In this document: piece by piece, positions 58,382 to 61,968 of the stretch
Numbering within the stretch: position 1 is the first letter of the stretch
Layout of the letters: the number at the start of each line of letters is the position of its first letter
Assembly (NCBI RefSeq): GCF_900102075.1
Contig: NZ_FNAV01000013.1
Location: 1 to 64,000 of the forward strand
Length of the DNA: 64,000 nt
Reading direction: 5' to 3'
DNA from: Salipiger thiooxidans
Lineage (GTDB): Bacteria; Pseudomonadota; Alphaproteobacteria; Rhodobacterales; Rhodobacteraceae
Made by a program: the position numbers and the translations under genes
Notes under the pieces: generated by a model
Database searches by the model: none
What the model was told of the DNA's origin: nothing
What the model saw: only the letters and a program-made list of their open reading frames with translations

Positions 58382-58774
58382 TCAGTTCTCGTGGTTGCGC
58401 TCGAGGTTCCGCTCAAGATCCAGCGGCGGCTCGACGGTGTAGTCCACCACCCCCGCCACGGTGCTGCCCTCGGTCAGCAGGTCGCCGTAGCTCTGCTGCA
58501 TCCCCGCCACCACGTCGATGATCGACTGCTCGCCCGGCTGCAGGAGCCCGGTGCTCCAGCTGTCGTCAGTCGCCACGGCGGACATCGCAAGGTCGGAGTT
58601 GTTCACGAAGCGGATGGTGTCCCCCACGGTCGGGTAGACGTAGTCGGGGAAGTAGCCGATGCCCATCATCAGAACGTAGTGTTCTTCGGCATGGACCGCC
58701 GCAGAGAGAAGCGCCACCGACAGCGGGATGGAAAGGGTCAGGGCAAGGGCCCGGCAACCTGTCTTGCGCAGCAT
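58382..58774 (-). CDS. Exported cupredoxin-like protein without copper ligands
   Basis: This is a 130-residue protein with a signal peptide (residues 1-29, LTLSIPLSVALLSAAVHA). The mature part follows the cupredoxin strand order: PTVGDTIRFVNNSDLAMSAV, SWSTGLLQPGEQSIIDVV and VAGVVDYTVEP. At the position of the first copper His the sequence is Met/Ser (NNSDLAMSAV) and no Cys-x-x-x-His-x-x-x-Met loop follows, so a type 1 copper site is absent. The role is unknown, possibly structural or binding. Convergent with the SRAP gene. Confidence 0.65.
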   Translation of the reverse strand: MLRKTGCRALALTLSIPLSVALLSAAVHAEEHYVLMMGIGYFPDYVYPTVGDTIRFVNNSDLAMSAVATDDSWSTGLLQPGEQSIIDVVAGMQQSYGDLLTEGSTVAGVVDYTVEPPLDLERNLERNHEN

Positions 58775-58885
58775 GGTTCGCTCCTTCGAAAGGCACAACA
58801 CGGCCCCCACCGCTTTGCCGGTGGCAAGGATTAAGAGACGATTAGGGCGAGAGTTTGACCGCTTCCCGCAAGCACCGCGGCGGGG

Positions 58886-59962
58886 TCAGAGGCTGTCAGA
58901 CCCCAACAGCGCGGTGGCGATCATGTCCGCCGCCGACGGGCCCAGCGCCAGCGGCGTGTCGTGCAGCACCGAAAGCCGGGTCAGCGCCTGCAGGTCAGCC
59001 TCGCCGCCATGCGGGACCGTCGGGTCGGCGAAGAAGATCACCGCGTCGAGCTCGCCCGTCGCGATCAGCGCGCCGAGCTGCTGGTCGCCCCCGCGCGAGC
59101 CGCGCTGCAGGCGGTGCACGCTGAGCTGAGGCGCGGCCTCCGAGATCACGTGGCCGGTGCCCCCGGTGCAGATCAGCCGGTGCCCCTCGAGTGCGGCGGC
59201 GTGGCGCGTGACCCAGGCCCGCAGATGCGCCTTGCGGGTGTCGTGGGCGGCCAGCGCGATGCGCCGTGGCGCGGTCGAACGTGCACGCGCCCGTGCTGTC
59301 AGGCCGAGGATGGCGCGGACCTGCGCGGCGAAACCGGGCCCCTCGGCGGGAAAGGCCCCGGCGAGCGCCGCGGTGCCCACGGTGAAGCCCCCTGCCCCGG
59401 CCTCGGCAGCGGCGTTGATGCGGGCCTCGCCGTCGATGCTGCCCGCCATGATCACCGGTTTGCCGACGGCGCTGCACACCGCGCGCATCAGCGCCGGCAC
59501 GTCACCCGCGAATCGATAGGCCAGCAGGTCGAGCCCGTGCACATGTTCCAGATCCGCGAGCTTTCGGGCCGAGTCGACGATGGCCTCGGCCGGCCCCTCG
59601 AGCACGCTCGGGTGGCCCGAGATCCGGCCCGCGAAGGGATAGTAGCGCAGCGGGTGGCTCCGGGTGACCTGGGTCACCGCCTGCGGTCGGGTGCCGCCCA
59701 GCAGGCAGTCGACATCGAGGTCCACCGCGGCGCGGGCCGAGGCGAGCTCGCTCTCCTCGTCGAGGCTCACCACCTCGAGATAGGTCCGCCCGCCCGAGCT
59801 GCGAATCGCATCGGCAAGCCCCTTCAGCTCGGAGAACGGCAGGCCCACGTCCTTGAACCCGATGTGCCGGACCCCGCCCTCGAGCGCCTCGTCGATTCGG
59901 GCACGGGCGTCGGGGATGGTGCGGTCGTTCTCGGTGAGCATGAGGATGAAGTCGAAAGCCAT
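58886..59962 (-). CDS. Fusion of a HisA-like TIM barrel and a methylglyoxal-synthase domain
   Basis: This is a 358-residue protein with two domains. Residues 1-220 look like a (beta/alpha)8 barrel of the HisA/phosphate-binding type: repeated strands end in VRHIGFKDVGL, TYLEVVSL, VDCLLGG, GLDLLAYR, KPVIMAGSID and AGGFTVGTAAL (C-terminal phosphate-binding Gly). Residues 232-345 match methylglyoxal synthase: RRIALAAHDTRK (His240, Lys244), ICTGGTGHVI, GGDQQLGALI (Asp293), IFFADPTVPH (Asp313, His318) and Asp323. MgsA makes methylglyoxal from dihydroxyacetone phosphate and is normally about 150 residues and free-standing. AGGAAGGA ribosome-binding site. It is divergent from ggt by 212 bases. Confidence 0.75.
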   Translation of the reverse strand: MAFDFILMLTENDRTIPDARARIDEALEGGVRHIGFKDVGLPFSELKGLADAIRSSGGRTYLEVVSLDEESELASARAAVDLDVDCLLGGTRPQAVTQVTRSHPLRYYPFAGRISGHPSVLEGPAEAIVDSARKLADLEHVHGLDLLAYRFAGDVPALMRAVCSAVGKPVIMAGSIDGEARINAAAEAGAGGFTVGTAALAGAFPAEGPGFAAQVRAILGLTARARARSTAPRRIALAAHDTRKAHLRAWVTRHAAALEGHRLICTGGTGHVISEAAPQLSVHRLQRGSRGGDQQLGALIATGELDAVIFFADPTVPHGGEADLQALTRLSVLHDTPLALGPSAADMIATALLGSDSL

Positions 59963-60174
59963 GGGATCCTTCCTGTGCTTCGCGGGGCCTCTGCTCTGCC
60001 GGGCTTCTGCCGTGCCGGGGCCGTGCTGCAACCCTAGCGCCATTGCCGGTGCGGTCAAAGGTGCTCACGCCCCCCGGGCGGGGTTCTGCGGGTTTTCGCG
60101 GCGCGAGTGCATGGGGGCTGCACGACCGGCCATCGCTTGCTAGGCTGGCAGGCAAAGCGAACAGGGAGATCGCC

Positions 60175-61968
60175 ATGAACAGACTGCTTCTTTCCCTTGG
60201 CCTTGCGATGCTTGCCGCCGCGCCGGCGCTGGCGCAGGACGCCGCGGACAGCGTCGCCCCCGAGGCCGCCACCGAAGATGCCGAGGCCTTTGCCTCGATC
60301 TCCGAGCCCGCGCGCAAGGCGCTGGAGGCCCGGCAGTCGGGCGTGCCCACGGAGGCGCAGGACTGGATGGTCGCCGCGGCGAATCCGCTGGCGGTCGAGG
60401 CCGGCGCACGGGTGCTGCGCGAGGGCGGCACCGCGGCGGATGCCATGGTCGCCGTGCAGGCGGTGCTGGGGCTGGTCGAGCCGCAATCCTCGGGCCTCGG
60501 CGGCGGTGCCTTCCTTGTCTGGTACGACGCCGAAAGCGGCGAGATCACCACGCTCGACGGGCGCGAGACGGCGCCGCTCGACGCCAACCCGCGGCTGTTT
60601 CAGGACGAGGCGGGCGAGCCGCTCAAATTCTTCGACGCGGTGGTGGGCGGGCTCTCCGTCGGCACCCCCGGCACGCCGCGCCTGATGGAGGCCGCCCACG
60701 AGCGCTGGGGCAGCGCCGACTGGTCCGGGCTCTTCGACGAGGCCATCGCGCTGGCCGAGGACGGCTTCACCGTCTCGCCGCGGCTGGCCGGGCTGGTCGC
60801 CGAAGAGGGCGAGCGGCTGCAGACCTTCCCCGCGACCGCCGCCTATTTCTTCCCCGACGGCGCCGCCATCGAGGCGGGCAGCCGCCTGACCAACCCCGAC
60901 TACGCCGCGACCCTGCGGAGCATCGCCAGCGAAGGCGCAGATGCCTTCTATACCGGCGAGATCGCCCTGGACATCGTCGCCGCCGTCCAGGGCGCCGAGG
61001 GCAACCCCGGCAAGCTCTCGACGCTCGACCTGATGCGCTACCGGGTGGTCGAGCGCCCGGCGGTCTGCGCGGCGTTCCGCGCCCACGAGGTCTGCGGCAT
61101 GGGCCCGCCCTCGTCGGGAGCGCTGACCGTGGGGCAGATCCTCGGGATGCTCGACAGCTACGACCTCGCGGCGCTTGGCCCGGAGAGCCCCGAGGCATGG
61201 CGGCTGATCGGCGACGCCTCGCGCCTCGCCTTCGCCGACCGTGACCGCTACATGGCCGACAGCGACTTCGTACCGATGCCGGTGAAGGGCCTCGTGGCGC
61301 CCGACTACCTCGCCTCGAGGGCCGAGCTTCTGGCCGGCGACGACGCCCTGCCCGAGGTCGCCGCGGGCAACCCGGCATGGGACCACGCCATGCTGCTGGC
61401 CGATGACGAGAGCATCGAGCTGCCCTCGACCTCGCACATCTCCATCGTCGACGCGCAGGGCAACGCGCTGTCGATGACCACCACCATCGAGAACGGCTTC
61501 GGCTCGCGGGTCATGGCGCGGGGCTTCCTGCTCAACAACGAGCTCACCGATTTCTCCTTCCGCAGCCAAAGCGACGGCGTGCCCATCGCCAACCGCGTCG
61601 AGCCCGGCAAGCGTCCGCGCTCGTCGATGTCCCCCACCATCGTGACCCGGGACGGCGCCCCGGTGCTGGTGATCGGCAGCCCCGGCGGCAGCCGCATCAT
61701 CGGCTACGTGGCGCAGGCCATCGTCGCGCATATCGACTGGGGCATGGACGTTCAGCAGGCGGTGGCGATGCCGCATTTCGTCAACCGCTTCGGCACCTAC
61801 GACCTCGAGGAAGGCACCCCTGCCGCCGATCTCGAGACGCCGCTCACCGAGCTCGGCTACGAGGTAAGCGTGCGCGAGCTGAACTCGGGGCTGCACGCCA
61901 TCGCCGTGGGCGACGGGCTGAAGGGCGGTGCCGATCCGCGCCGCGAGGGCATCGCACTCGGCGAGTGA
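60175..61968 (+). CDS. ggt: Gamma-glutamyltransferase
   Basis: This self-processing periplasmic enzyme cleaves gamma-glutamyl bonds such as in glutathione. The 597-residue precursor has a signal peptide (LLLSLGLAMLAAAPALA). The autocleavage/nucleophile Thr419 lies in LPSTSHISIVDAQGNALS; other motifs are EPQSSGLGGGAFLVWYDAE, GMGPPSSGALTVGQIL and RPRSSMSPTIV with VIGSPGGSRII. The ATG at 60175 follows AGGGAGATCGCC. It is convergent with a flavodoxin gene four bases away. Confidence 0.93.
   Translation: MNRLLLSLGLAMLAAAPALAQDAADSVAPEAATEDAEAFASISEPARKALEARQSGVPTEAQDWMVAAANPLAVEAGARVLREGGTAADAMVAVQAVLGLVEPQSSGLGGGAFLVWYDAESGEITTLDGRETAPLDANPRLFQDEAGEPLKFFDAVVGGLSVGTPGTPRLMEAAHERWGSADWSGLFDEAIALAEDGFTVSPRLAGLVAEEGERLQTFPATAAYFFPDGAAIEAGSRLTNPDYAATLRSIASEGADAFYTGEIALDIVAAVQGAEGNPGKLSTLDLMRYRVVERPAVCAAFRAHEVCGMGPPSSGALTVGQILGMLDSYDLAALGPESPEAWRLIGDASRLAFADRDRYMADSDFVPMPVKGLVAPDYLASRAELLAGDDALPEVAAGNPAWDHAMLLADDESIELPSTSHISIVDAQGNALSMTTTIENGFGSRVMARGFLLNNELTDFSFRSQSDGVPIANRVEPGKRPRSSMSPTIVTRDGAPVLVIGSPGGSRIIGYVAQAIVAHIDWGMDVQQAVAMPHFVNRFGTYDLEEGTPAADLETPLTELGYEVSVRELNSGLHAIAVGDGLKGGADPRREGIALGE

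Follow-up and report, generated by a model that had tools for sequence, protein, structure and literature searches.

A barrel–methylglyoxal-synthase fusion in Salipiger thiooxidans and its relatives: a conserved two-domain protein that may act on small ketone phosphates

Methylglyoxal synthase (MGS) acts on dihydroxyacetone phosphate (DHAP). The ribulose-phosphate-binding barrels form a superfamily with eight strands, in which strands 7 and 8 are each followed by a phosphate loop that contains glycine; in HisA, the two catalytic Asp residues lie at strands 1 and 5. PdxA makes 3-amino-2-oxopropyl phosphate (PHA) and PdxA2 makes DHAP; acid-sugar pathways that combine a DUF1537 kinase with PdxA2 were reportedly described by Zhang and by Thiaville in 2016. 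PMC9997740 assigns PdxA2 to the catabolism of organic acids and states that it is able to carry out the reaction of PdxA. For MgsA, PMC7843640 ascribes the holding of phosphate to Lys23, Ser65 and Thr45–Gly49 and the role of catalytic base to Asp71, and describes His98 as accessory and not critical.

The window considered here, a stretch of 64,000 nucleotides of Salipiger thiooxidans DNA, encodes on its minus strand a single ORF of 358 aa, which starts with an ATG at 59962 and ends with a stop at 58886 (Table 1). The initial annotation had claimed that one protein joins a barrel to an MGS domain, and this fusion is indeed real and not a chance event, because all 80 relatives kept from a genome scan carry one uninterrupted fused ORF of 353–373 aa. 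The scan found 101 relatives in total, and the fusion counts given below rest on the 80 kept. The S. thiooxidans assembly contains one match to the fusion. AlphaFold2 models are confident both for the whole protein, over most of its length (pLDDT 90.6, pTM 0.87), and for the barrel alone (pLDDT 90.9), with 44 sequences in one underlying alignment and 33 in another. Mean column identity is 80% in the barrel half (33-row alignment) and 67% in the MGS half (22-row alignment).

Table 1. Features of the fused gene in the window.
Feature	Coordinates	Strand	Basis
Fused barrel–MGS gene	58886..59962	-	358 aa + stop; intact in 80/80 kept relatives
Shine-Dalgarno-like AGGAAGG	59968..59974	-	Five bases 5' of the ATG; read from the sequence
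Barrel domain, residues 1–224	59291..59962	-	AlphaFold2 models, Foldseek; below every curated-family cut-off
Linker, residues 225–231	59270..59290	-	Joins the barrel model to the MGS match
MGS domain, residues 232–354	58901..59269	-	PDB phmmer, Pfam, NCBIfam, Foldseek
Lys37 codon, end of barrel strand 2	59852..59854	-	K in 66/66 barrels
Arg287 codon, replaces Ser65 of E. coli MgsA	59102..59104	-	R in 81/81 fusions; S in 23/23 stand-alone MgsA
Asp293 codon, equivalent of the catalytic base Asp71	59084..59086	-	D in 81/81; role of Asp71 from PMC7843640

The kept relatives are 65–91% identical to the window protein over the best segment, the closest of them (91%) being Salipiger proteins. Judged by record titles, the fusion is carried by Rhodobacterales, Stappia, other Hyphomicrobiales, SAR116 and two MAGs labelled Verrucomicrobia, among others. 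These last two (L086 and L087) are possibly cases of transfer or misbinning; L086 groups among Hyphomicrobiales in the barrel tree. Among the 295 genomes of the family sample, 17 contain the whole fusion, four a barrel-only match (one of these, L021/L172, is cupin-fused) and 16 an MGS-only match. Barrels were found in 17 of the 244 genomes of the order sample, 16 of the 17 with a frame long enough for the fusion, and in 31/385 genomes of the class sample. A tree of 66 barrels (30 fused and 36 others, quick search) places the 30 MGS-fused barrels on one side of a branch with an SH-aLRT of 99.7, so that they form one group, which fits a single origin of the fusion; L108 is one of the four unresolved basal lineages in this group. 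Among the matches listed in a search of non-subscription literature that covered the fusion, Rhodobacterales MGS and the operon, no description of the architecture was found, in agreement with the earlier remark that it is not known to have been characterised. The barrel–MGS fusion is genuine and conserved, and apparently undescribed.

The assignment of the C-terminal part to MGS, also made in the initial annotation, is borne out by the profile and structure searches. Residues 232–354 match PDB entry 1vmd with an E-value of 7.7e-27 (phmmer against the PDB), and the fusion scores 34.5 bits against Pfam MGS (cut-off 24.1) and 126.2 bits against NCBIfam NF003559 (cut-off 84), with 106 bits against TIGR00160 lying below the cut-off of 146.9. 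The match to E. coli MgsA stops at MgsA residue 128 of 152. Foldseek likewise puts the C-terminal half of the model on MgsA chains (best 26 chains listed). Residues were counted, in E. coli MgsA numbering, over 81 fusions, namely the window protein and the 80 scanned loci. The equivalents of His19, Lys23, Thr45, Thr48, Gly66, Asp71, Gln72 and Asp101 are kept in all of them, that of Asp91 in 79, and the Asp20 position is Asn in 24. The Asp/His set that had been said to be largely kept thus stands for His240, Lys244, Asp293 and Asp323 (81/81) and for Asp313 (79/81), and it does not for His318: this residue, present in only 68/81 fusions, occupies the Val96 position, two residues before that of His98, where no fusion has His (Gly320 in the window protein). 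Two extra residues reported earlier after the VPH loop turn out to be an alignment slip. Asp313 and Asp323 are ten residues apart, as are Asp91 and Asp101 in E. coli MgsA, and there is no insertion in the MGS loop, since the spacing is unchanged in 79/81 fusions and one residue shorter in the other 2.

It is the phosphate pocket that departs from MgsA. The replacement of the phosphate-binding Ser by Arg, already noticed in the single sequence, extends to every fusion (Ser65 position, 81/81). Thr is likewise missing from the Thr47 position in all 81, which have Gly (75), Ser (3), Asp (2) or Glu (1) there, and the MgsA motif TGTTG reads TGGTG in the window protein. Ser65 is kept in all 23 stand-alone MgsA sequences read, and none of the 23 has Arg at position 65. 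This set consists of 10 sequences (three from the PDB and seven of the nine MGS-only loci L022–L030) and 13 of 15 further loci; L022 and L027 were left out for internal stops, and L184 and L193 for the lack of a frame readable by the pattern used; further MGS-only matches of the family sample had no locus. Since Asp71 is kept and both Ser65 and Thr47 are replaced in 81/81, the MGS half is one with its catalytic base retained and its phosphate pocket rebuilt. The shift of substrate preference suggested in the initial annotation is likely.

Residues 1–224 score above the cut-off of no curated family in Pfam and NCBIfam profile searches, and the best hints, PF00977 and TIGR01919, lie far under threshold. 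The label “HisA-like” first given to this half holds at the level of the phosphate-barrel superfamily and fails for the HisA family, membership of which is ruled out by the scores against TIGR00007 (12.5 bits, cut-off 228.95) and PF00977 (11.8 bits, cut-off 23.6). A distant kinship to PF00977 is likely, as 16/18 barrels show a weak match to it in single-sequence scans, at E 0.05 or better (best E 0.00051). The PDB folds nearest to the barrel model by Foldseek are BexX (a relative of ThiG), TrpA, HisA-type proteins and OMP decarboxylase. Secondary structure and Foldseek together describe an eight-stranded barrel with Gly loops after strands 7 and 8, which places it in the ribulose-phosphate-binding barrel superfamily; phosphate binding is predicted. 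T10, D13, K37, D38, E63, F110, D145, G174 and G196 are invariant in 66/66 barrels of all kinds, and H117, R150 and S175 are identical in 65/66. We read this invariant charged core as the probable signature of an enzyme and not of a scaffold.

The barrel, to which the libraries searched assign no function, belongs to a modular family whose members stand alone or are fused to an MGS domain or to a C-terminal cupin. Cupin_2 was detected in the barrel proteins of L150, L173, L174 and L175; the L111 protein carries the annotation of a cupin protein, the L172 protein has a match to that cupin, and in L114 a cupin is encoded by the next gene after the barrel. The stand-alone barrels of L112, L114 and L116 are publicly annotated as 4-hydroxythreonine-4-phosphate dehydrogenase, a label that looks as if it had been carried over from the neighbouring pdxA. 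A further stand-alone barrel, 36% identical and annotated as a hypothetical protein, is encoded on a Staphylococcus warneri plasmid (L113, 8992–9654), and the family therefore reaches Bacillota.

The earlier note had called for a survey of the neighbours, and none common to all 80 fusion loci was found; the neighbours were called from raw ORFs in G+C-rich DNA, where genes may be missed or misplaced. A PdxA ORF overlaps the start of the fusion in 2/80 loci, by 11 nt in L099 and by 4 nt in L108, and a distinct PdxA paralogue adjoins the barrel in 8 of the 36 non-MGS loci examined. Five of these eight come from six plasmid records picked by eye among 83 with a match, which are therefore not a fair sample; the 30 other non-MGS stretches (26 from the class search, four from the family search) have PdxA in three (L150, L171 and L175). 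The PdxA of L108 is 57–70% identical to the nine other barrel-adjacent PdxAs. A search of 14 genomes gave 12 PdxAs not adjacent to a barrel, to which it is 37–49% identical. A branch of the PdxA tree with 100/100 support splits 11 of these 12 from the 10 barrel-adjacent proteins; L209, the twelfth, diverges strongly and lies outside this split, and when it is counted, the barrel-adjacent PdxAs form one side of a branch in just 52% of bootstrap trees.

The gene order LysR/DUF1537 kinase–PdxA–barrel occurs on plasmids of Mesorhizobium (with a barrel–cupin protein), Rhizobium, Gemmobacter and Roseateles, and the order DUF1537 kinase–PdxA–barrel also in L175; in all, five loci (L111, L112, L115, L116 and L175) have both a DUF1537 kinase and a PdxA next to the barrel. 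A Gluconobacter plasmid has the order PdxA–barrel–cupin, and the Staphylococcus plasmid locus is without PdxA, DUF1537 kinase, LysR and cupin. The Mesorhizobium and Rhizobium loci also contain alanine-racemase-type and ornithine-cyclodeaminase-type genes, to which the former adds threonine aldolase and threonine dehydrogenase and the latter RidA. In the L108 genome, PdxJ is present and the single PdxA found is the one next to the barrel, so this PdxA may make PHA. No PdxJ was found in the L099 genome, and the L099 and L108 MAGs may thus be incomplete. The PdxAs found in G000 and in the fused genomes that carry L039, L080, L088, L103, L107 and L109 are of the other type and located elsewhere; a search of the L098 genome found no PdxA.

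A more frequent neighbour is a PdxY-like kinase, encoded upstream on the same strand in 32/80 fusion loci and lying at -11 to 13 nt from the fusion in 30 of them. Two such kinases that were examined fall below every pyridoxal-kinase equivalog cut-off, and for the one searched, the closest relatives with a solved structure are pyridoxal kinases. A search of 12 fused genomes gave a match in 10, nine of them at 47% identity at least, and one of these nine has a second copy (36%). Often the sole PdxY homologue found in a genome, this protein may be just a pyridoxal kinase. Within the stretches examined, 46/80 fusion loci have neither PdxA nor a PdxY-like kinase, and neither is next to the fusion in the window, whose genome has a PdxY-like relative (40%) on another contig and a partial match (35%).

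Other associations are sparser. A RidA-type ORF lies upstream in 4/80 fusion loci, and some fusions adjoin housekeeping genes, which by reading are of the peptidyl-tRNA hydrolase and YchF types. The corrinoid-/folate-type genes near the Stappia fusions, also named by reading, are on the opposite strand and were not taken as linked. In L085 and L091, a methyltransferase of the MTTB type (assigned to PF06253 in L085) is encoded 114 nt upstream of the fusion. Some loci of other stand-alone barrels contain FGGY kinases, Fe-ADH_2 dehydrogenases, class II/RraA-type aldolases or DeoR regulators. In the window, a gamma-glutamyltranspeptidase (GGT; PF01019) is encoded divergently beside the fusion at 60175–61968 on the plus strand; GGTs 54–55% identical to it adjoin barrel genes in L162 and L173, the other six GGTs of barrel loci are 26–30% identical, and the link between GGT and barrel may be real or due to chance. 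After the fusion, the window encodes (58382–58810, minus strand) a small protein that looks secreted and by eye resembles a cupredoxin; at E 0.001 it matches no Pfam family. A relative of it is found downstream in 7/80 fusion loci, and the six that are placed beside the fusion belong to Salipiger or Citreicella.

The common thread of PdxA, PdxA2 and MGS chemistry is a three-carbon ketone phosphate. We tentatively propose that the fusion is an enzyme whose two domains handle small ketone phosphates such as PdxA-type dehydrogenases produce, with PHA or DHAP as candidate substrates, a reading that seems plausible and is far from assured. The barrel and the MGS domain would act serially: the barrel would bind the phosphate at the ends of strands 7–8 (Gly174–Ser175 and Gly196–Thr197), and its Lys37 and Glu63, with nearby Asp residues, would enolise or rearrange the ketone phosphate. 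The MGS domain would receive the product, Asp293 would abstract a proton, and the phosphate, gripped by Lys244, Thr266, Thr269, Gly288 and Arg287, would be eliminated. Methylglyoxal would result or, if the substrate bears an amino group, its imine and hence methylglyoxal and ammonia. In many Rhodobacterales, it is the PdxY-like kinase and not PdxA that stands upstream as the partner. Of the two possibilities raised in the initial annotation, a two-step conversion and regulation, the former appears preferable, because the barrel core is invariant in 66/66 and because there are barrels that have no MGS domain, some of them encoded next to PdxA-type dehydrogenases and to kinases for sugar acids or sugars.

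An amino compound is attractive as the substrate for three reasons: DHAP, if this were simply what PdxA produces, would need no further enzyme, the RidA-type genes of a few loci fit imine chemistry, and the L108 genome has PdxJ together with only a barrel-adjacent PdxA. In its most specific and quite speculative form, which we consider rather unlikely, the proposal describes a new type of enzyme, an aminoketone-phosphate lyase that converts PHA through a Lys37-dependent barrel step and an MGS-type elimination into methylglyoxal and ammonia. The chemistry of 4-hydroxythreonine and vitamin B6 would then have a branch or safety valve that has gone unrecognised, with the cupin as the second part in other bacteria. 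The FGGY kinase, Fe-ADH_2 and aldolase genes beside another barrel clade mean that the substrate may be a different C3–C4 phosphate. The proposal draws on the overlapping PdxA ORFs of L099 and L108, on the position of the barrel next to one PdxA subgroup in certain MGS-fused, cupin-fused and stand-alone loci, on the PdxY-like kinase upstream of 30/80 fusions and on the residues kept in both domains. Against it stand the 46/80 fusion loci, and the window, with neither partner nearby, the small shares of fusion loci (2/80) and non-MGS loci (8/36) that have the PdxA, and the 52% bootstrap value of the PdxA branch with L209 counted.

One alternative is that the protein is still a methylglyoxal synthase that turns DHAP into methylglyoxal and phosphate, with a barrel that merely feeds, buffers or regulates DHAP. 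This would agree with the passing of the NF003559 equivalog cut-off and with the Asp, His19 and Lys equivalents kept in 81/81. Moreover, with up to six candidates scored per genome, just one of the 17 fused genomes of the family sample (G125) gave a second MGS match, which has six internal stops, and His98 is described as accessory in PMC7843640. However, the TIGR00160 cut-off is failed, His98 is gone, and Ser65 and Thr47, both of the phosphate-binding set, are replaced throughout the fusions, whereas every stand-alone MgsA read has kept Ser65, so we regard this alternative as somewhat doubtful. A role of the barrel as the only enzyme, with the MGS domain turned into a sensor of phosphate or of a metabolite, is less probable still. 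An MGS-like domain serves as a regulatory domain in carbamoyl phosphate synthetase, and the barrel is the better conserved half (80% against 67%), but a sensor would not need the equivalents of Asp71, His19 and Asp101 that all 81 fusions retain.

Similarly improbable in our opinion is a housekeeping role in vitamin B6 metabolism, in which the protein would work together with PdxA or PdxY and clear excess unstable PHA or some B6 intermediate akin to it. The PdxA-type (L099, L108) and PdxY-like (32/80) partners speak for it, as does the L108 genome with its PdxJ and one PdxA adjacent to the barrel. Nevertheless, the PdxAs in the other fused genomes searched are of another type and encoded elsewhere, the PdxA–barrel unit is accompanied by DUF1537 kinases and LysR regulators in the manner of a catabolic operon, and the MAGs, one of them (L099) with no PdxJ found, may be incomplete. 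An artefact of gene calling or assembly is practically out of the question with one intact fused ORF in each of the 80 scanned loci.

The fusion is present in many marine bacteria, and the vitamin-B6-type dehydrogenase next to some of its relatives hints at an undescribed handling of small ketone phosphates. Automatic annotation may call it methylglyoxal synthase, as it passes NF003559, and this label may mislead, because the phosphate pocket is rebuilt in all 81 fusions. The swap of C-terminal partners (MGS, cupin or none) offers a direct handle on the barrel reaction, which, once found, would also help to assign the loci where the barrel lies beside PdxA, DUF1537 kinases, FGGY kinases or aldolases.

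Compared with known systems, the barrel shares with HisA and HisF (PF00977, TIGR00007) a phosphate-binding beta/alpha barrel, with weak similarity in the part formed by strands 6–8, but stays below the curated cut-offs, and its invariant set of D13, K37, D38, E63 and D145 is read from sequences of the barrel family. BexX (ThiG-like), TrpA, PcrB and OMP decarboxylase are among the closest predicted folds (TM 0.57–0.68 by query length), yet their identity to the barrel is only 12–18%. The DUF1537 kinase–PdxA2 acid-sugar pathways resemble the five barrel loci in which both genes adjoin the barrel, whereas the barrel and its cupin and MGS partners go unmentioned in the accessible part of PMC9997740. 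The closest likeness in the other half is that to MgsA (PDB 1vmd, 1b93), with which the fusion shares the MGS fold and the equivalents of H19, K23, T45, T48, G66, D71 and D101; it differs in that MGS here is the C-terminal half of a longer protein, with Ser65 replaced by Arg, Thr47 by Gly, Ser, Asp or Glu, and His98 lost.
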